Source: Betaproteobacteria bacterium UBA2293
GTDB lineage: Bacteria; Pseudomonadota; Gammaproteobacteria; Burkholderiales; Rhodocyclaceae
Direction of reading: 5' to 3'
NCBI GenBank assembly: GCA_002345845.1
Contig: DDWF01000266.1
Location: 1 to 14,258, forward strand
Length of the DNA stretch: 14,258 nt
This document shows, piece after piece, positions 6,096-13,667 of this stretch. The stretch's first letter is position 1; every line of letters begins with the position of its first letter. The notes under the pieces were generated by a model. It was not told the origin of the DNA and searched no databases. It saw nothing but the letters and a program-made list of their open reading frames with translations. The position numbers and the translations under genes were made by a program.

Positions 6096-7246
6096 ATCGG
6101 CGCATCGCTCACCTCGACATGGATGCCTTCTTCGCCTCCGTCGAGCTGCTGGCCTACCCGGAATTGCGCGGCCAGCCCGTCGTCGTCGGCGGCCGCCGGG
6201 TGGACCGGCCGCAAACCGGCGCCGATGGCCGCCGCCAGTTCGCCCGCCTGCGCGACTATGCCGGGCGCGGCGTCATCACCACCTCCACCTACGAAGCCCG
6301 ATCGCTCGGCGTCTTTTCCGGCATGGGCCTGATGAAGGCCGCCCAGCTCGCCCCCGAGGCCATCCTGCTGCCCGCCAACTTCGACGCCTACCGCGAGGCC
6401 TCGCGCCGCTTCAAGGCTGCCGTCGCCAGCATCGCGCCACAGATCGAAGATCGCGGCATCGACGAAATCTACATCGACCTCAGCGCCCTCCCCGCCGACA
6501 GCCTCAGCCTCGCCCGGCAGATCAAGCAGGCGGTGCGCGACGCCACCGGCCTCAGCTGCTCCATCGGCATCACCCCCAACAAACTGCTGGCCAAGATCGC
6601 CTCCGACCTCGACAAACCAGACGGCATCACCCTGCTTGCCATGGACGACATCCCGACCCGCATCTGGCCGCTGCCGGCGCGCAAGATCAACGGCATCGGC
6701 CCGAAAGCCGACGCCCGGCTGGCGCAACTCGGTATCCAGAGCATCGGCCAACTGGCGTCGACACCGCTCGAACTTCTCGTCCGCCACTTCGGCCAGCGCT
6801 ACGGCCACTGGCTGCACCGCGTCGCCCACGGCCTCGACGAGCGCCCGGTCATCGTCGAACACGAACCCAAGTCGATCAGCCGCGAAAGCACCTTCGACCG
6901 CGACCTGCACCCGCGTCAGGACCGCGCCGAACTCTCGGAAATTTTCACCGGCCTCTGCCACCGCGTCGCCGACGACCTGCAACGCAAGGGCTACACCAGC
7001 CGCACCATCGGCATCAAACTGCGCTTCGCCGACTTCCACGCCGTCACCCGCGACCTCACCCTGCCCGTCGCCACCGCCGACGCCGCCACCATCCGCCGCG
7101 CCGCCGGCGAATGCCTCAAGCGCATCCCGCTGGAACAACGCATCCGGCTGCTCGGGGTGCGGGCCGGCACGCTCGTGCCGCTGAATGCCGGCGCAACGGA
7201 AAGCTCAGTGCTCCAGCCTGAATTACCGCTATTCGAGCAAGGGTAG
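6086..7246 (+). CDS. dinB: Y-family DNA polymerase IV
   Basis: 386 residues. Translesion polymerase of the Y family; acts on the replication fork clamp during the SOS response. The palm has HLDMDAFFASVE (9-20; the first catalytic aspartate at D11) and RGIDEIYIDLS (123-133; D126 and E127, the second catalytic pair, in place of the usual S-I-D-E-A-Y). A longer-than-usual loop at 36-62 (GGRRVDRPQTGADGRRQFAR...) is, to my knowledge, common in betaproteobacterial relatives. SIGITPNKLLAKIASDLDKP (159-178), the helix-hairpin-helix INGIGPKADARLAQLGI, and the little-finger domain follow. The last residues hold QPELPLF (377-383), a beta-clamp-binding motif. The ATG at 6086 is the only start consistent with the family; no Shine-Dalgarno lies before it. 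The open frame continues upstream without a usable start. Controlled by the LexA box that covers its start. Confidence 0.94.
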   Translation: MNSNRRIAHLDMDAFFASVELLAYPELRGQPVVVGGRRVDRPQTGADGRRQFARLRDYAGRGVITTSTYEARSLGVFSGMGLMKAAQLAPEAILLPANFDAYREASRRFKAAVASIAPQIEDRGIDEIYIDLSALPADSLSLARQIKQAVRDATGLSCSIGITPNKLLAKIASDLDKPDGITLLAMDDIPTRIWPLPARKINGIGPKADARLAQLGIQSIGQLASTPLELLVRHFGQRYGHWLHRVAHGLDERPVIVEHEPKSISRESTFDRDLHPRQDRAELSEIFTGLCHRVADDLQRKGYTSRTIGIKLRFADFHAVTRDLTLPVATADAATIRRAAGECLKRIPLEQRIRLLGVRAGTLVPLNAGATESSVLQPELPLFEQG

Positions 7247-7268
7247 AAATTCTGCGCAATCAGGAAGC

Positions 7269-7294
7269 AAAAAGGCCAACCGAAATGGCTGGCC
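7269..7294 (-). terminator. Intrinsic terminator (minus strand), left copy
   Basis: GGCCAACC (7274-7281) pairs with GGCTGGCC (7287-7294); on the minus-strand RNA the one non-Watson-Crick position is G-U, so all eight pairs form. The minus strand continues into TTTTTGC (7273-7267). It resembles the terminator following tRNA-Gly at 8928-8954 (both contain the GCCAACC arm) and lies 20 bases beyond a copy of the tRNA 3' end. It probably was the original tRNA-Gly terminator and may now terminate the HEPN operon. Confidence 0.65.
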
Positions 7295-7314
7295 TGATCT
7301 ATGGAGCATCTGGA

Positions 7315-7338
7315 TGGAGCGGGCGATGCGAATCGAAC
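7315..7338 (-). repeat. Partial copy of the tRNA-Gly 3' end (attachment-site repeat, distal)
   Basis: TGGAGCGGGCGATG followed by C and GAATCGAAC matches 8993-9016 inside the intact tRNA-Gly gene at 23 of 24 positions: CCA end, discriminator, 3' acceptor strand and most of the T arm. Beyond 7338 the match breaks off. The rest of a tRNA (anticodon and D arms) is absent, so this is not a gene but a duplicated 3' end, as produced by site-specific integration into a tRNA gene. Confidence 0.75.
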
Positions 7339-7480
7339 ACGTGGGGCAAGGGATTAAACGGAAAAGAGCCCGGCGACAAACTCCCTAAATATCCGAAAAT
7401 TACGAACACATCTCCATACACTTCTCACGTACCAGAGCGGTGCATCGTACGATCCAGTTAGACTAAGTTTGATTTCTTTG

Positions 7481-7500
7481 TGACCAGACCCTGACCAGAC
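7481..7500 (+). repeat. Tandem direct repeat TGACCAGAC, 11-base period
   Basis: TGACCAGAC occurs at 7481-7489 and 7492-7500, two bases apart, one helical turn centre to centre. A third GACCAGA in the same orientation is at 8917-8923 near the other end of the island. Such phased short repeats beside an att site resemble arm-type integrase or excisionase binding sites; no integrase is present to test against. The stretch 7247-7515 holds only this, the left terminator and the tRNA fragment; no gene is seen in it. Confidence 0.45.
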
Positions 7501-7515
7501 GCGGAATTTCTTGCC

Positions 7516-8112
7516 TTACGCCATTGTTCTAAACCAATCTTTAACCGTTAATCTTAAACGATCAACTTCGTCATCCGAAATTGGACAACAATGGGCAATC
7601 GGACCACGCAGCAAATTCAAACTACTCATAATCCGTTCAACAGCACGACGGCTGTTAAATATTGGCTCGAAGAGCGTCCAATTATTAGTAATGAGTACAG
7701 AAAGTTCACCAAATGTCGTGTAATTCAATAGGTCATCTGAACGTCGAGTAACGCCACTGTCGAGTTCCTTCTGAACACGATCTCTAACGTCATCTTTGAT
7801 TCGTTGCGGTACCGCTGTTCCATTCCACCAATCAGCGCCAAATGCCTCTGCAAGTGTCTCTGAGACAAGTTTCCGAATCGAAATTTCGAGGCAATAGAAA
7901 ACCTCGTAATGTTTGGACATCTTGGCAGCTTCAGCGCGAACCGATCCTTCAAATTGAGGGTAATACTCAGAAGCATCACCGTCAGAATTATTAAACGGGG
8001 TATGTCCCAATTCTAGGTTTAAGCGGCGTTCAACGTCTCGCAGCTCTTCGTTAATTAGAAAGCCAGACATTCCAAACGACCGAATCCGATCCGCTGCTTT
8101 TCGACTACTCAT
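7516..8112 (-). CDS. Swt1-type HEPN domain protein, putative ribonuclease
   Basis: 198 residues. The N-terminal 65 residues are charged and without a recognised domain. From about 66 to 195 it matches the HEPN domain found at the C-terminus of yeast Swt1 and in many bacterial defence proteins: YEVFYCLEISIRKLVSETL (69-87), FGADWWNG (91-98), YTTFGELSVLITNNWTLFEP (131-150), and RGPIAH (169-174), the R-x4-H motif that forms the RNase active site of HEPN dimers. The motif is intact, so cleavage of RNA is plausible (family knowledge), but the target is unknown. The ATG at 8110-8112 overlaps the upstream gene by eight bases (ATGAGTAG), with a weak AAGAG before it. No signal peptide or membrane segment. 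AT-rich codon use marks it as acquired. Alternative reading: an RNA-binding, inactive HEPN partner. Confidence 0.75.
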   Translation of the reverse strand: MSSRKAADRIRSFGMSGFLINEELRDVERRLNLELGHTPFNNSDGDASEYYPQFEGSVRAEAAKMSKHYEVFYCLEISIRKLVSETLAEAFGADWWNGTAVPQRIKDDVRDRVQKELDSGVTRRSDDLLNYTTFGELSVLITNNWTLFEPIFNSRRAVERIMSSLNLLRGPIAHCCPISDDEVDRLRLTVKDWFRTMA

Positions 8113-8749
8113 CGCTGTCTCTTAAGAGGTTTTCTTTAAGACTTTTAAATATTGCGTTGAATACAGCAATGTCTGAGGTAGCCGGAAGATTAAGATTGAT
8201 CGTATAAGAGAGATTCAACCCAAGACCCGATGTGGCGGACTTTACGCTTTCAGGAATCTCCGAACTGTTAGCTTCACGGTATTGCGGTTCCGATTGAATA
8301 ATTACGTTCGCATGAGAATCTTGTCCTGAGAAATCAGCGTACGCCTTGAGGGCCTTAATCGCACTCATTACACATGAAACAGCACTCGATCCCTCCTCTG
8401 CCCCTGTTTCTTCAATTATCAATCCTTTAAGTTTTGCCTCCGGGAGTTCATGCATGTACTCATTGCGTCTATATAGCGGTTCATATGCCTTCTTAAGTGC
8501 TGCCGCAGCTGCTTGCCCCCGAGTTCCTTGATTTCTGAACTGTCGATAGAGTTCGGTGGGAGAGCCGTCAGGAGCCGCAAATCCAATCTTCTTCAGGTAC
8601 GAAGTCATCTGGTCGCCGGATCCGCCCGGAATCTGAAGAATAGTTTTCACAAAGTCTTGCGTGACTCGCTCTGGGGTGGCTGCCGAAATTATTCCATCCA
8701 AAGCTCTACGGATATTTCCAGATGCTGTGACATACGGAAGTGTTGCCAT
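8105..8749 (-). CDS. DUF5343-like protein, partner of the HEPN protein
   Basis: 214 residues. It starts MATLPYVTASGNIRRALDGI, and residues 1-100 look like the winged-helix-like DUF5343 region: a short helix, TPERVTQDFVKTIL, GSGDQMTSYLKKIGFAAPDG, SPTELYRQFRN, then AAAALKKAYEPLYRRN. After a polar stretch (101-175) it ends with LSYTINLNLPATSDIAVFNA and IFKSLKENLL, a beta strand plus helix typical of the C-terminus of such proteins. The biochemical role of DUF5343 is unknown; being first in a two-gene operon with a HEPN protein, it could be its antitoxin/regulator or a sensor. The start is firmly set by AGGAGG four bases before the ATG (8747-8749), the strongest Shine-Dalgarno in the window. The match is by eye; family membership is likely but not certain. 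Confidence 0.68.
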   Translation of the reverse strand: MATLPYVTASGNIRRALDGIISAATPERVTQDFVKTILQIPGGSGDQMTSYLKKIGFAAPDGSPTELYRQFRNQGTRGQAAAAALKKAYEPLYRRNEYMHELPEAKLKGLIIEETGAEEGSSAVSCVMSAIKALKAYADFSGQDSHANVIIQSEPQYREANSSEIPESVKSATSGLGLNLSYTINLNLPATSDIAVFNAIFKSLKENLLRDSDE

Positions 8750-8784
8750 TTGTCCTCCTAGGATTGCTTCGAGTCGTCCTCAAA

Positions 8785-8816
8785 AGTATAGCAGCCGACA
8801 TATTCCATACACGTAT
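8785..8816 (-). promoter_or_regulatory. Promoter of the DUF5343/HEPN operon with a palindrome at -35
   Basis: TATACT reads leftward at 8790-8785, about 36 bases before the ATG, leaving a leader of roughly 30 bases that contains the AGGAGG. The expected -35 position (17-base spacer) has no TTGACA match but is covered by the palindrome ATAC-AC-GTAT (8807-8816). A promoter with a poor -35 and an overlapping palindrome suggests a regulated, possibly autoregulated, operon. Confidence 0.4.
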
Positions 8817-8850
8817 CGACTTTTTACTTGGGTGCAATACATCACTTCTG

Positions 8851-8868
8851 CTAGCTTCGACCTAGCTT
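8851..8868 (+). repeat. Tandem direct repeat CTAGCTT, 11-base period
   Basis: CTAGCTT occurs at 8851-8857 and 8862-8868 with CGAC between, again one helical turn apart, and together the pair also forms a short inverted repeat (GCTAG/CTAGC). It lies about 65 bases upstream of the operon's -10 element. The interval 8761-8927 otherwise shows the promoter only; no gene is seen. Whether this is an operator, a recombinase site or chance cannot be decided here. Confidence 0.35.
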
Positions 8869-8927
8869 GTTAATGCGACAACACTGTCCCGAAAAATCCC
8901 AAGCTCACCAGATATCGACCAGAAAAC

Positions 8928-8954
8928 AAAAAAGCCAACCGCTTCCGGTTGGCT
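8928..8954 (-). terminator. Intrinsic terminator of tRNA-Gly (right copy)
   Basis: AGCCAACCG (8933-8941) and CGGTTGGCT (8946-8954) form a perfect 9-base-pair stem with a four-base loop. On the minus strand it is followed by TTTTTTGTTTT, a strong U-tract; on the plus strand TTTTTCTTTT follows as well, so it can act in both directions. It ends the tRNA-Gly transcript about 38 bases after the CCA and insulates the island operon promoter from it. Confidence 0.85.
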
Positions 8955-8992
8955 TTTTCTTTTGCAGATCAACGACCTGCCTGAGTTCGATG

Positions 8993-9066
8993 TGGAGCGG
9001 GCGATGGGAATCGAACCCACGGCTCTAGCTTGGGAAGCTAGGGTATTACCATTATACGACGCCCGC
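8993..9066 (-). tRNA. tRNA-Gly, anticodon CCC
   Basis: 74 bases including encoded CCA. Read on the minus strand: acceptor GCGGGCG pairs with CGCCCGC, followed by discriminator T and CCA; the anticodon arm is CTAGC-TTCCCAA-GCTAG, giving anticodon CCC (glycine, codon GGG); the T arm has the loop TTCGATT. Its 3' end is the integration site of the island to its left. A promoter-like pair lies just upstream. Confidence 0.95.
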
Positions 9067-9683: not shown

Positions 9684-10721
9684 TTGACCGCCACCACCTC
9701 CTTTGCCGAAGTCCTGATTGCCTGGCAGAAGTCCGCCGGACGCCACGACCTGCCTTGGCAGAACACCCGCGACCCTTACCGGATCTGGCTTTCCGAGATC
9801 ATGTTGCAGCAGACGCAGGTGGCGACGGTGATTCCGTATTACCAGCGCTTTCTCGCTTCCTTTCCCGACGTAAGGGCATTGGCGGCGGCGCCGGTGGAGA
9901 TGGTGATGGAGCACTGGGCCGGACTCGGTTATTACGCCCGGGCGCGCAACCTGCATCGTTGCGCGCAGCAGGTGGTGGCGGTGCATGGCGGGCGTTTTCC
10001 CGGTAGTGCGGCAGAACTGGAAACCTTGCCGGGCATCGGTCGATCCACGGCAGCGGCGGTGGCTGCCTTCGCCTTTGGCGAGCGGGCGGCGATTCTCGAT
10101 GGCAACGTCAAGCGGGTGCTCTGCCGGCAATTTGCCGTGACTGGTTTTCCCGGCGCCGCCAAGGTGCATCAGCAGCTCTGGGAACTGGCCGAAAGTCTGC
10201 TGCCGGAGCGCGATATCGAGGCGTACACGCAGGGCCTGATGGATCTCGGCGCCGGTACCTGCACGCGCAGCCGTCCGGCCTGTGGTCGCTGCCCGCTGGC
10301 CGTCGGCTGCCTGGCGCGCAAGCAGGGGCTGCAGGCAGCCTTGCCGGAGGCCCGGCCGCGCGCCGCCGTGCCGGAGCGCCGTGCGGGTTTCGTGCTGATT
10401 CGTCAGGGGCAACGCGTACTGCTTGAACGGCGGCCGCCGAGCGGCCTCTGGGGCGGGTTGCTGGTGCCACCGGAGGGTCTACCGGCGGCGGTGCTTGCCC
10501 GACTTGGATTACAGGCGCTGAGCCAACAGGCCTTGCCACCGCTGCGCCATGCCTTCACCCATTTCCGTCTGACCCTGGAGCCGGTGTTGTGCGATGTATC
10601 GGCAAGCTGCCTTGTTGCCGAACCCGGCCTGGAATGGGTCGAATTGGCGCAGGCGGCGACGGCGGCAGTGCCGACGCCAATCGGCAAGCTGCTCAGGCAG
10701 GTTGCCAGCGCAGCGGACTGA
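9684..10721 (+). CDS. mutY: A/G-specific adenine glycosylase
   Basis: 345 residues (E. coli MutY 350). It removes adenine mispaired with 8-oxoguanine. LSEIMLQQTQV holds the catalytic glutamate E38; the helix-hairpin-helix LPGIGRSTAAAVAAFAFGER (115-134) is followed by LDGNVKR with D139; the iron-sulfur cluster has C193-x6-C200-x2-C203-x5-C209; a NUDIX-like C-terminal domain (about 235-340, with PPSGLWGGLLVPPEG and a HAFTHFRL strand) recognises 8-oxoG. I chose the TTG at 9684 because GAGG stands six bases before it and the family starts there; an upstream GTG at 9654 has no Shine-Dalgarno and would precede the predicted transcription start. The 3' end overlaps the convergent HD-GYP gene by 29 bases. 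Confidence 0.94.
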   Translation: MTATTSFAEVLIAWQKSAGRHDLPWQNTRDPYRIWLSEIMLQQTQVATVIPYYQRFLASFPDVRALAAAPVEMVMEHWAGLGYYARARNLHRCAQQVVAVHGGRFPGSAAELETLPGIGRSTAAAVAAFAFGERAAILDGNVKRVLCRQFAVTGFPGAAKVHQQLWELAESLLPERDIEAYTQGLMDLGAGTCTRSRPACGRCPLAVGCLARKQGLQAALPEARPRAAVPERRAGFVLIRQGQRVLLERRPPSGLWGGLLVPPEGLPAAVLARLGLQALSQQALPPLRHAFTHFRLTLEPVLCDVSASCLVAEPGLEWVELAQAATAAVPTPIGKLLRQVASAAD

Positions 10722-11913
10722 GCCCCCAGCGCTCGTAGGTTTCGGCGCGGACAATCTGCCCGTAGTGGTTGCCGACAACGCGCGCCAGGTCGACGCGGAC
10801 CGGCTCAACGTATTGCCGCCGCCCGGAATGGAAGATGACGCGGACGACCGGGCTGAGGATGCTCTCGTGGTGCAGTTCCTCGACCACCGCCAGATGGCCG
10901 CTTTCCAGCAGGACCAGGGTGCCGACCGGATAGACGCCGATGGTGCGGACAAAGGCGGCGACCAGTTCGGGGTCGAACTGGCTGCCGCCCTGGTCGTAGA
11001 GCTGACGTAGCGCCAGCGACGGTGAAATGGCCGGCCGGTAGGGACGGTCCGAGGTCATCGCGTCGTAGGTGTCGACGACGGCGGCCATGCGTCCGGCCAG
11101 GGAGATTTCGTCGCCGGCCATGCGGTAGGGGTAGCCGCAGCCGTTGTAACGCTCGTGGTGTTCGAGGACGACGGCGACCGAGGTTTCAGGCAGGCGAACC
11201 GTCGCCTGCAGCACGGAAAGCCCCTCCTCGACATGGCTCTGGACGACTTCGTACTCCGACTGCGACAACATGCCGGGCTTGGTGATCAGGCGGGCATCCA
11301 TGGCCGACTGGCCGATGTCCTTGACCATGGTGCCGAGGGCCAACTTCTCCAGCTCCGCTTCCGGTAATTCAAGTTGCCGGCCGAGGGCGATGATCAGTGC
11401 TGCCGTCGCCACGGCGTGCTCGGTGGCGTAGGCATCGTGGCGCTTCAGGCGGGCCAGCGGGGCCAGGGCATCCGGGTTGCGCAGCACCGATTCGATCATC
11501 TTGGCAACAACTGGTTCAAGACGCGCCGCATCCACCTCACGCCCGCTGCGCGCGGCCAGCATCAGCTCGGCAACGGTATTGGCAGCCTCGCCGATCAGCC
11601 GCGCCGAACGGCGGCGCTCTTCGCCCAGGGAAACCGTCGCCGGCTTGGCCTTGAGCCGCTGCAGGCGACCGATGAAGTGTTGTTCGATTTCGTCGTTACG
11701 ATAAACAGGCGGCGGCTCGGGCGGCGGCAGGTCGCTGCCCTTTTCCGTATCGATGCTGACTTCGGTGATGCCTTCCTCGACCAGACGGGCGATCTGTTCT
11801 GCATCGCGAATGACAAATTTCTGCCGCCAGAAGGAGTGTTCCAGCCATTTCCGGTGCAAATCCACGACAAACATGCCGGGCTGCAACTGGTCGATGGAGA
11901 GTTTGCGGATCAT
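10693..11913 (-). CDS. DUF3391/HD-GYP protein with degenerate HD motif
   Basis: 406 residues. DUF3391 at about 1-140 (begins MIRKLSIDQLQPGMFVVDLH) precedes an HD-GYP domain, the cyclic-di-GMP phosphodiesterase type. Conserved parts: FEH-like ATEHAVA (H166), SHVEEG (H227), HHERYNGCGYP (252-262) and GRMAAVVDTYDAMTSDRPYR. The core HD pair is altered: TMVKDIGQ (195-202) stands where the sister protein has GLLHDVGK, so the metal-binding histidine is lysine (K198) and the conserved following lysine is glutamine. From family knowledge this should weaken or abolish metal-dependent hydrolysis, leaving a possible c-di-GMP sensor. It is the last gene of a three-gene operon; its ATG at 11911-11913 lies 12 bases past the previous stop with no good Shine-Dalgarno. 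Its 3' end overlaps mutY by 29 bases. Confidence 0.9.
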   Translation of the reverse strand: MIRKLSIDQLQPGMFVVDLHRKWLEHSFWRQKFVIRDAEQIARLVEEGITEVSIDTEKGSDLPPPEPPPVYRNDEIEQHFIGRLQRLKAKPATVSLGEERRRSARLIGEAANTVAELMLAARSGREVDAARLEPVVAKMIESVLRNPDALAPLARLKRHDAYATEHAVATAALIIALGRQLELPEAELEKLALGTMVKDIGQSAMDARLITKPGMLSQSEYEVVQSHVEEGLSVLQATVRLPETSVAVVLEHHERYNGCGYPYRMAGDEISLAGRMAAVVDTYDAMTSDRPYRPAISPSLALRQLYDQGGSQFDPELVAAFVRTIGVYPVGTLVLLESGHLAVVEELHHESILSPVVRVIFHSGRRQYVEPVRVDLARVVGNHYGQIVRAETYERWGLSPLRWQPA

Positions 11914-11925
11914 CGCGCGTGGCGC

Positions 11926-12477
11926 CTATTGTCCAGCCGCCTGCTGCTTCTTCTTTTCCACCTTGGCGGCGTGACGGGCCTGTTTCTGACGCTGCTTTTC
12001 GGCCTCGGCCGCCTTGCGCTTGGCGCCTTCGGCCGCCTTGCGCTCCTTGTCGGCCAGGCGGCCGGCGATGGCGGCGTCGTCGGCTTGTCGGGCAGCTGTC
12101 GTTTCCGCCTGGCGGACCGCCAAGTCGGCTGCCTTCTGGCGCGCCTTTTCCTGGCGGACGAGTTCCGCCTCTTGCGCTTCTTCCTGCCTCACCATGCGTT
12201 CGAGGGCGGCGCCTTCGTTTTCCAGGCGGCGGGCTTCGCGGATGCTCGCCAGGTGATCGTCACGCGCATCTTCGATACAGGAATTGACAAAAAACTTGTC
12301 GGCACAGGCCTTCTGGCGCCTTTCGAACAAATCATCAGCCTGCTGCCGGTGCGCCTGCGCTTCGGCCTGCAGGGCCGTTGCCCGCGCCTGCCGCTGCTGG
12401 CGGTCACCGACCGCTTCTTCGGCCAACACCAGGAGTGGCAGGCCGCAGAGCAGCAGCGCGATCAGGCGGGCAGCCAT
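11926..12477 (-). CDS. Secreted Ala/Lys/Gln/Glu-rich coiled-coil protein
   Basis: 183 residues, no named family recognised. MAARLIALLLCGLPLLVLA (1-19) is a signal peptide ending in a likely cleavage before EEAVGD; it is not a lipoprotein type. Residues 25-170 are almost wholly charged and alanine/glutamine-rich and should form a long helix or coiled coil, broken by a short segment with two cysteines nine residues apart (C58 and C67, in CADKFFVNSC) that may form a disulfide. From about 100 on, repeats such as RQKAADLAVRQAETTAARQA recall TolA-like stalks. I use the ATG at 12475-12477 as the frame upstream of it lacks protein-like features. It overlaps the upstream HD-GYP gene by 16 bases, so it is likely translationally coupled and made together with both HD-GYP proteins. 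A periplasmic role is inferred from the signal peptide only. Confidence 0.78.
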   Translation of the reverse strand: MAARLIALLLCGLPLLVLAEEAVGDRQQRQARATALQAEAQAHRQQADDLFERRQKACADKFFVNSCIEDARDDHLASIREARRLENEGAALERMVRQEEAQEAELVRQEKARQKAADLAVRQAETTAARQADDAAIAGRLADKERKAAEGAKRKAAEAEKQRQKQARHAAKVEKKKQQAAGQ

Positions 12478-13667
12478 TGGTAGGGGTCGATTTTCCACTT
12501 GTCGAAGCTTTCGAAACTGGCGATGCGATCCTGCGACTTGGCGAGATCGACGATTTCCGGCGGGATGTAGTACTGCTGGCCGGCATGGTAGAAGATGCGG
12601 ACGACCGGTTCGAGCAGGCTCTTCTCGTTCTGCTCGACGACAACGCCAAGCCGCTTGCTTTCCAGCTGGACCAGCGCCCCGGTCGGATAGATGCCGATGG
12701 CGCGGATGAAGGCCTGGACCAGTTGCGGGTCGAAGTGATGACTGCTCCATTCAAGCAGCTTCTTCAGCGCCTGCGTCGCCGGCATGCCCTTGTGATAAAT
12801 GCGGTCGGAGGAGATCGCGTCATAGACGTCGACGATGGCCGCCATCTGGCCGTAGAGACTGATGCCGGCAGCACTCAGCCGGTTTGGGTAGCCGGTACCA
12901 TCGAAACGTTCGTGGTGCTGTGCGGTGACCTGTATGGCGATGTCGCTGACGCCGGGGGTCTGGCGCAGCAGCTGCACGCCCTGATCGACGTGCGATTTCA
13001 TGCGCTCGAACTCGTCCTCGTCCAGCTTGCCGGGTTTGTTGAGGATGGCATCGGGGATGCGCGCCTTGCCGACGTCGTGCAACAGGCCGCCGAGCGCCAT
13101 CTCCTTGATCACCGCCTTGTCCAGCTTGAGGCCGCGGCCAAAAGCGACGAGCAGGGCGCAGACGCCGACCGAATGCTCGAAAGTGTAGTCGTCGTGGTTC
13201 TTCAGCCGGGCCAGCGGCAACAGCGCGTCCTGATTGCGGAAGATGGATTCGACCATGTTTTCGACCAGCGGTTCGACGCGATCGACCTGAATCTGCTGGC
13301 CAAGACGGATGTCGTCCATCATGTGGCGGACCACCTTGTTGGCCTCGCCGTGCAGGCGCCGGGCCCGTGCCGCCTCATCCTTGAGCGCCACGGCCACCGG
13401 CTTTTCCGGCTCCTTGCGGGCGATTTCCTGCATCCGACGGTCGAGATCGGCACTAACTTCCTGCTGCGTGCGCGCCGCCCAGACATCCGCCCCCTTGAGC
13501 GTATCGATGTACAGCTCGCGGATGCCGAGATTGATGATCTTGTCCACCGTCGTCTGGTCGTGAACCTTGAAGGCGTTGGACAGGAAGGGATGGTCCAGCC
13601 AGCCACAGTTCAGATCGTGGATGTACATGCCCGGCTTGAGCTGGTCGGTGCGAATCTGCTTGATCAT
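12462..13667 (-). CDS. DUF3391/HD-GYP cyclic-di-GMP phosphodiesterase
   Basis: 401 residues. DUF3391 (about 1-140, starting MIKQIRTDQLKPGMYIHDLN) then HD-GYP, expected to hydrolyse cyclic di-GMP in the cytoplasm. All core motifs are intact: FEH (H165), GLLHDVGK (194-201, H197/D198), KSHVDQG (H226), HHERFDGTGYP (251-261) and the VDVYDAISSDRIYHKGM segment. It is clearly paralogous to the protein at 10693-11913 along its whole length, so the two arose by duplication around the secreted coiled-coil gene. The ATG at 13665-13667 starts the operon; a leftward TAGAAT at 13700-13695 is a likely -10, inside the -35 area of the divergent ABC-F gene. Confidence 0.92.
   Translation of the reverse strand: MIKQIRTDQLKPGMYIHDLNCGWLDHPFLSNAFKVHDQTTVDKIINLGIRELYIDTLKGADVWAARTQQEVSADLDRRMQEIARKEPEKPVAVALKDEAARARRLHGEANKVVRHMMDDIRLGQQIQVDRVEPLVENMVESIFRNQDALLPLARLKNHDDYTFEHSVGVCALLVAFGRGLKLDKAVIKEMALGGLLHDVGKARIPDAILNKPGKLDEDEFERMKSHVDQGVQLLRQTPGVSDIAIQVTAQHHERFDGTGYPNRLSAAGISLYGQMAAIVDVYDAISSDRIYHKGMPATQALKKLLEWSSHHFDPQLVQAFIRAIGIYPTGALVQLESKRLGVVVEQNEKSLLEPVVRIFYHAGQQYYIPPEIVDLAKSQDRIASFESFDKWKIDPYQWLPA

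Follow-up and report, generated by a model that had tools for sequence, protein, structure and literature searches.

HEPN domains that carry an Rx4-6H motif are described as mostly ribonucleases (RNases), often acting as toxins or abortive-infection effectors (PMC3710099). The phage defence candidates (PDCs) (PMC11514479) are described as putative, mostly unvalidated systems obtained by guilt-by-embedding (PMC12988326), and one of them, PDC-M34, pairs a DUF5343 protein (PDC-M34A) with a protein of the HEPN_Swt1 family (PDC-M34B). Here we analyse a copy of this pair in a 14,258-nucleotide (nt) stretch of Betaproteobacteria bacterium UBA2293 (assembly GCA_002345845.1, contig DDWF01000266.1), the whole of which is referred to as the window. 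We think it somewhat probable that the PDC-M34 module is a self-contained two-gene conflict system, in which a HEPN endoribonuclease effector is paired with a dedicated DUF5343 controller.

The DUF5343-HEPN gene pair

Both genes lie on the minus strand, begin with ATG and were placed from the list of open reading frames (ORFs) and from profile matches. The first (8105..8749) encodes a protein of 214 amino acids (aa) that matches DUF5343 in Pfam (PF17278, E = 1.5e-38, 132.7 bits against a cut-off of 27), and the second (7516..8112) encodes a predicted HEPN RNase of 198 aa (PF18731, HEPN_Swt1, E = 1.8e-12, 48 bits against a curated cut-off of 27.5). No NCBIfam profile matched either protein at E ≤ 1. 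The reading frames share 8 nt (8105..8112, minus strand). A ribosome-binding site, AGGAGG (8754..8759, minus strand), stands 4 bases 5′ of the DUF5343 start codon, and a weak one, AAGAGA (8118..8123, minus strand), precedes the HEPN gene within the DUF5343 frame. A scan of positions 7240-9000 gave one promoter-like site against a mean of 2.0 in shuffled sequences, fewer than chance, so no promoter is claimed. The GC fraction is 0.45 in the two-gene module and 0.65 in its flanks.

The translated HEPN protein reads R169-GPIA-H174 at the active-site motif (codons at 7591..7608, minus strand), in agreement with the Rx4-6H pattern. The arginine and histidine are invariant in 43/43 aligned sequences, the most divergent of which share 26% identity with the window protein; the alignment comprises the window protein, 29 proteins chosen from 120 listed database proteins, and 13 loci. 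Some HEPN families are inactive or regulatory (PMC3710099), and the protein could accordingly be imagined as a regulatory or nucleotide-binding domain rather than an RNase, making the pair a transcriptional regulator with its helper, but the invariance of both motif residues across such divergent sequences makes this unlikely. A preliminary description of the locus had proposed the two families, the intact R169-x4-H174 motif, the 8-base overlap and a strong ribosome-binding site followed by a weaker one, and all of these stand.

The same description was aware of no characterised system composed of just these two proteins, and had set a match to an already named system as grounds for refutation. 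Such a match exists, though to a candidate label only: in PADLOC-DB the two proteins match PDC-M34A (2.6e-40) and PDC-M34B (2.8e-38) nearly end to end (profiles PDLC04589/PDLC04592). An unnamed new pair is ruled out, as PADLOC already catalogues it as the candidate PDC-M34; our assignment follows from the two matches and the adjacency of the genes with their 8-nt overlap. The pair is therefore a catalogued candidate system whose mechanism is absent from the literature searched, in which neither DUF5343 nor PDC-M34 is named. Judged from sequence, it may have an anti-phage, toxin or antitoxin function.

Conservation of the pair across genomes

Database relatives at E ≤ 1e-3 number 3,582 for the HEPN protein and 4,496 for the DUF5343 protein. 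For closer inspection, genus, family and phylum samples were defined relative to G001, the nearest comparison genome, with 21% of sampled words in common (G and L numbers are our own handles for genomes and loci). HEPN relatives were found at 18 loci: on 7 genome contigs, in 7 of 398 genomes of the phylum sample, in 2 of 199 of the family sample and in 2 of 76 of the genus sample. At 15 of these 18 loci the gene immediately upstream, on the same strand, encodes DUF5343, with anything between an overlap of 17 nt and a gap of 4 nt, and the stand-alone, full-length HEPN homologues examined have it there without exception (15/15). The remaining three are L003, which holds a 98-aa HEPN fragment, and L013 and L014, longer frames with partial similarity. 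The pairing is not a matter of chance, since each protein has thousands of relatives and the gene order is kept at the loci examined; the recurrence of the adjacent pair, for which the preliminary description had called for a survey, is thereby supported. The six paired loci on genome contigs come from records named Thiobacillus, Terriglobia, Kineosporia, Pseudidiomarina, Lacimicrobium and Alcanivorax.

Module GC lies below flank GC in 14/14 loci measured, the window included. Neighbouring genes at 11 other listed loci appear mostly housekeeping-like by eye, and a scan of 10 neighbours, taken from five loci, yielded a single weak DrmA match in PADLOC and one Mrr-type match just under the Pfam cut-off. 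Defence genes near the pair in other genomes are thus scarce, and the earlier reading of the pair as a toxin-antitoxin (TA) or defence module is partly supported.

DUF5343 also has a second kind of partner. Among the 398 phylum genomes it was found in eight, and the next gene is a Swt1-type HEPN gene in five and a gene of 170-171 aa resembling DUF4145, a family of the HEPN superfamily (PMC3710099), in the other three. Pairs with such a partner lie at L078 8593-9746, L079 9166-10154 and L022 780-2019. The Pfam scores of this partner (18.1-21 bits) fall below the curated cut-off of 23.1, and where the pairs were scanned PADLOC matched the DUF5343 half only, with no match for the partner, which is why we call it only DUF4145-like. 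By eye, the histidine of the Rx4-6H motif is present in this partner and the arginine is absent. A split DUF5343 frame occurs in G036.

Predicted structure and proposed mechanism

The structure model of the DUF5343 protein, which is of moderate confidence only, shows a helical domain (residues ~1-143), a low-confidence linker (~144-178) and a conserved C-terminal tail (~179-208). Whole-domain fold matches of the helical domain include BrxA (3bhw) and SspB, at modest scores, and the top Foldseek match of the HEPN protein is AbiF/AbiD; no Foldseek match reached E ≤ 1e-3 for either protein, and these likenesses are structural leads only. Sequence searches of solved structures returned nothing convincing (best E values 0.26 and 0.41). 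A search with the tail region of the L022 DUF5343 protein, which sees proteins of similar length only, retrieved 287 proteins; PF17278 is present in 116 of the best 120 of these 287, and the idea that the tail also occurs detached, on proteins of other families, is unsupported.

From the knowledge of the HEPN family, the gene order and the anatomy of the two proteins, the best reading is that of a putative HEPN RNase governed by a DNA-binding DUF5343 partner that weakly resembles BrxA/SspB, with toxicity and a defence role as its presumed consequences. DUF5343 would be made first, and its conserved strand-helix tail would dock the HEPN protein. The helical domain, which is helix-turn-helix (HTH)-like and possibly of the two-HTH type of BrxA/SspB, would contact DNA: its own promoter, in the manner of type II antitoxins, or else invading DNA that acts as the trigger. 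Upon infection, DUF5343 would be lost or rearranged, and the HEPN dimer, once released, would cleave RNA and arrest growth, an abortive infection. The module would travel alone, with no other cargo, on a tRNA-Gly island where no integrase was found.

DUF5343 could also act in the opposite sense, as a sensor and activator: a BrxA-like DNA scanner that loads the HEPN RNase onto invading DNA or transcripts, with the HEPN protein alone being non-toxic. The whole-domain fold matches to BrxA and SspB, together with the pairing of DUF5343 with another HEPN-superfamily-like partner, would suit such a role, but the fold scores are modest, the model is only moderately confident and the DUF1819 (BrxA) profile has no match at E ≤ 1, the window protein matching DUF5343 only. 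We regard activation by DUF5343 as rather doubtful.

Another conceivable arrangement is AbiF-like control by an RNA antitoxin, where a nearby non-coding RNA, and not DUF5343, would restrain the HEPN RNase. The Abi_2 profile does not match the HEPN protein at E ≤ 1, only HEPN_Swt1 and HEPN_SAV2148 being matched. Regions of up to 300 nt upstream and 250 nt downstream of 14 modules share no common sequence (blastn, E 1e-3), except in two closely related loci, and the Rfam matches in the window are to tRNA only. Intergenic comparison and Rfam having yielded nothing beyond those two loci, an AbiF-like arrangement with an RNA antitoxin is considered very unlikely. The preferred control by DUF5343 would provide PDC-M34, a system with thousands of relatives and no mechanism in the literature searched, with a concrete and testable model built of a HEPN RNase, a DNA-binding partner with a docking tail and an alternative HEPN-like partner.

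The tRNA-Gly island and its relatives

The preliminary description had placed the pair in a small AT-rich insert at a tRNA gene, which the GC contrast and the repeats that flank it bear out. The likely integration target is a tRNA-Gly gene with anticodon CCC (8993..9066, minus strand). The 24 nt of its 3′ end, which form the proximal att-like repeat (8993..9016, minus strand), recur with 23/24 matches as a distal att-like repeat (7315..7338, minus strand), preceded on its own strand by ACGT, and for this reason the insert is taken to span from the tRNA 3′ end to position 7315. The resulting island of 1,678 nt lies between tRNA-Gly(CCC) and a dinB-type polymerase gene. A terminator-like hairpin follows the tRNA (8928..8959, minus strand), and a second stands beyond the distal repeat (7273..7295, minus strand). 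Between the repeats are two motifs common to other islands, LEFT, CTGGTCGATATCTGGTGA (8905..8922, minus strand), and RIGHT, TCTGGTCACAAAGAAATC (7471..7488, minus strand), of which at least the first ten bases are shared. The cargo consists of the DUF5343 and HEPN genes only; no other likely gene was seen and integration and transfer genes are absent, short overlapping ORFs not having been scanned, so that the island has the make-up of a cis-mobilizable element (CIME), with att repeats kept.

The flavin-reductase/tRNA stretch was matched, sometimes briefly, in 58 of 60 relatives, and 30 tRNA sites were fetched, some of them cut by contig ends. Two of these 30, in G001 and G408, hold a similar island. 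That of G001 carries an RmrA-like HTH/ImmA gene (1.2e-57) and a weak PIN-type gene, and that of G408 a PIN_8 gene (1.6e-65) with no PADLOC match. In the window, G001 and G408 (one mismatch), CTGGTCGATNTCTGGTNA lies precisely 94 nt downstream of the point where the proximal repeat begins, and a second motif, TCTGGTCACANNGNAATC, stands before the distal repeat; an exact search for TCTGGTCACANNGNAATC in the 60 relatives found two genomes, at precisely these two islands. On regions chosen after the fact, the right-end score was reached by 1 of 1,000 shuffles for window/G001, 1 for window/G408 and 78 for G001/G408, and the left-end score by 1 for window/G001 and 12 for window/G408.

A search with the left motif led to two further islands. 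The G663 island carries one ATPase-type gene, PDC-S59-like (6e-26), and the larger G597 island carries a type I restriction enzyme, a GmrSD_N/HEC-05-like protein, Drt1a, a NYN protein and an rve-type transposase. Since both were found by way of LEFT, independent support comes from their right end and junction only. In G663 RIGHT is exact but closer (122 nt) to the distal repeat, which carries 5 mismatches, while in G597 it keeps the ten-base core only, with 2 mismatches to the pattern. Across the five islands, with inserts of 1,678, 1,931, 1,721, 1,718 and 13,951 nt (the last being G597), TCTGGTCACA starts 122-208 nt before the end of the distal repeat, and ACGT precedes that repeat in 5/5, where the tRNA has GTGG or GAGG. 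Scans of the cargo proteins (8 of the 10 listed ORFs for G597) revealed neither a tyrosine nor a serine recombinase domain.

The contents of these islands bear on a simpler explanation of the pair, namely a plain type II TA module whose main selected effect is to retain the island in the chromosome, any anti-phage effects being incidental. The layout is that of a type II operon, with two small, co-directional, overlapping genes and the presumed regulator, DUF5343, first, and the regulator combines a HTH-like domain with a flexible linker and a tail; the pair is the only cargo of a mobile island, and another island at the same tRNA holds TA-like HTH/ImmA-type and weak PIN-type genes. PADLOC, however, catalogues the pair as a defence candidate, and the restriction enzyme and Drt1a reverse transcriptase of the same-ended G597 island speak for defence, not addiction. 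We hold this explanation to be possible but fairly improbable. For the vehicle, we tentatively suggest, with doubts greater than our confidence, that the module is cargo of a family of small recombinase-less elements with common ends, which insert at the 3′ terminus of tRNA-Gly(CCC), are reserved for defence and TA genes and depend on an integrase supplied in trans from another locus, forming a tRNA-based defence-cassette system, and that DUF5343 is a BrxA-like DNA sensor serving interchangeable HEPN-type effectors.

Several observations weigh against such shared-end elements. LEFT and RIGHT are not exclusive to islands. With up to one mismatch, RIGHT is present in 24 of the 199 family genomes and its reversed control in 2/199. 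One of the 24 is the G001 island, another is a further exact match in G524 (unfetched), 19 were fetched and three more were unfetched; the 19 fetched stretches of ~3 kb contain two tRNAs, one of them 163 nt from the motif. For LEFT (≤1 mismatch) the corresponding figures are 28 of the 76 genus genomes and 1/76 for the control, and at 20 fetched loci LEFT lies 92-94 nt after a tRNA-Gly-type repeat in 10 and not in the other 10. As LEFT also occurs outside islands, some of the left side may belong to the native sequence that follows the tRNA and not to the element. Four of six longer stretches chosen by LEFT lack RIGHT and a distal repeat within the stretch, with G663 and G597 having both. Other M34 copies of the genus, in G669 and G404, lack all three motifs on the module strand in the 19 kb fetched, which makes M34 only one possible cargo. 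Among viral contigs there are 31 exact matches to RIGHT and 14 to LEFT, and LEFT with 2-3 mismatches lies somewhere in 4 of the 31.

Three tyrosine integrases are encoded beside the same tRNA-Gly in relatives (L045 10098-12101, L047 683-2683 and L048 824-2221), two of ~666 aa with DUF6538 and Phage_integrase domains and one of 464 aa. L045 also holds a resolvase, and L047 HNH and methylase-type genes. Relatives of the three integrases used as queries were found neither by tblastn in the eight stretches L179-L186 nor in the 19 fetched RIGHT stretches. RIGHT is missing from the integrase islands of G424 and G432 at this tRNA, and neither has a convincing LEFT (G424 has one with 4 mismatches). 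These DUF6538 integrase islands were rejected as the source of a mobilising integrase, the shared ends being absent, and look like another family.

The vehicle is unexpected: a small recombinase-less element that shares its ends with islands of other defence- and toxin-type genes. Integrase-less islands as such are already described (PMC5704250, PMC3146451), and the shared-end family is the more novel part. These islands suggest a route by which single defence modules could spread without an integrase of their own, and if this were true, it would become directly testable how isolated defence genes arise away from large defence islands.

Other features of the tRNA-Gly site and the window

Three relatives have a group II intron (Rfam RF02012, RF00029) that interrupts the tRNA-Gly(CCC) gene of this site near its nucleotide 39 (L064 2239-5060 in G404, L068 9587-12372 in G418 and L050 535-2644 in G433). 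Each intron contains an ORF that resembles a reverse transcriptase by eye and is of reduced length in L050, and just before this ORF stands an intact second tRNA-Gly(CCC) of different sequence; the intron breaks the tRNA gene, yet brings a spare. A similar intron end is seen by eye before the repeat in L162 (G651). A literature search by title gave nothing on a group II intron with a spare tRNA in tRNA-Gly among the matches listed. Four other loci (L048 637, L058 525, L066 517 and L071 532) have a tRNA-Gly like the spare of L064/L068 and not the usual one, with no intron found, and replacement of the tRNA-Gly gene is possible in these four relatives.

At L184 (627-935, G650) a copy of the tRNA-Gly repeat together with the left motif lies 121 nt after a tRNA-Met. 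Behind the terminator of that tRNA-Met stands a similar motif of the TCTGGT type, and type I restriction-like genes follow by eye; use of the end motif may not be confined to a single tRNA. Elsewhere in the window, two similar, closely spaced minus-strand genes (10693-11913, 406 aa, and 12462-13667, 401 aa) look by eye like paralogous proteins of the HD-GYP type.

Comparison with known systems

The module is the same two-gene pair as PDC-M34, with both proteins matching near full length, though PDC-M34 is a candidate label only and the copy described here sits in a tRNA-Gly island. HEPN-MNT (type VII) TA systems likewise place the regulator first and the HEPN RNase second (PMC3710099), and MntA-HepT and HEPN-MNT appear among the fold matches of the window HEPN protein, but their partner is a minimal nucleotidyltransferase, whereas the window partner matches DUF5343 only at E ≤ 1. 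AbiF/AbiD (Abi_2) belong to the same HEPN group, Abi2/Swt1, in the 2013 classification (PMC3710099); the pair differs from them in having no Abi_2 profile match, no non-coding RNA seen and a constant protein partner instead. The fold matches to BrxA and SspB, of the BREX and Ssp systems, span the whole helical domain of DUF5343, yet the sequence profile differs and the seven window proteins scanned contain neither a BREX nor an Ssp domain. As for the vehicle, CIMEs likewise have target-gene repeats and no recombinase (PMC5704250), and the island resembles the 15 integrase-less, repeat-bounded islands described at ssrA in Dehalococcoides (PMC3146451). Compared with both, the islands described here have common end motifs at one tRNA and mostly defence or TA cargo, and four of the five are shorter than 2 kb.
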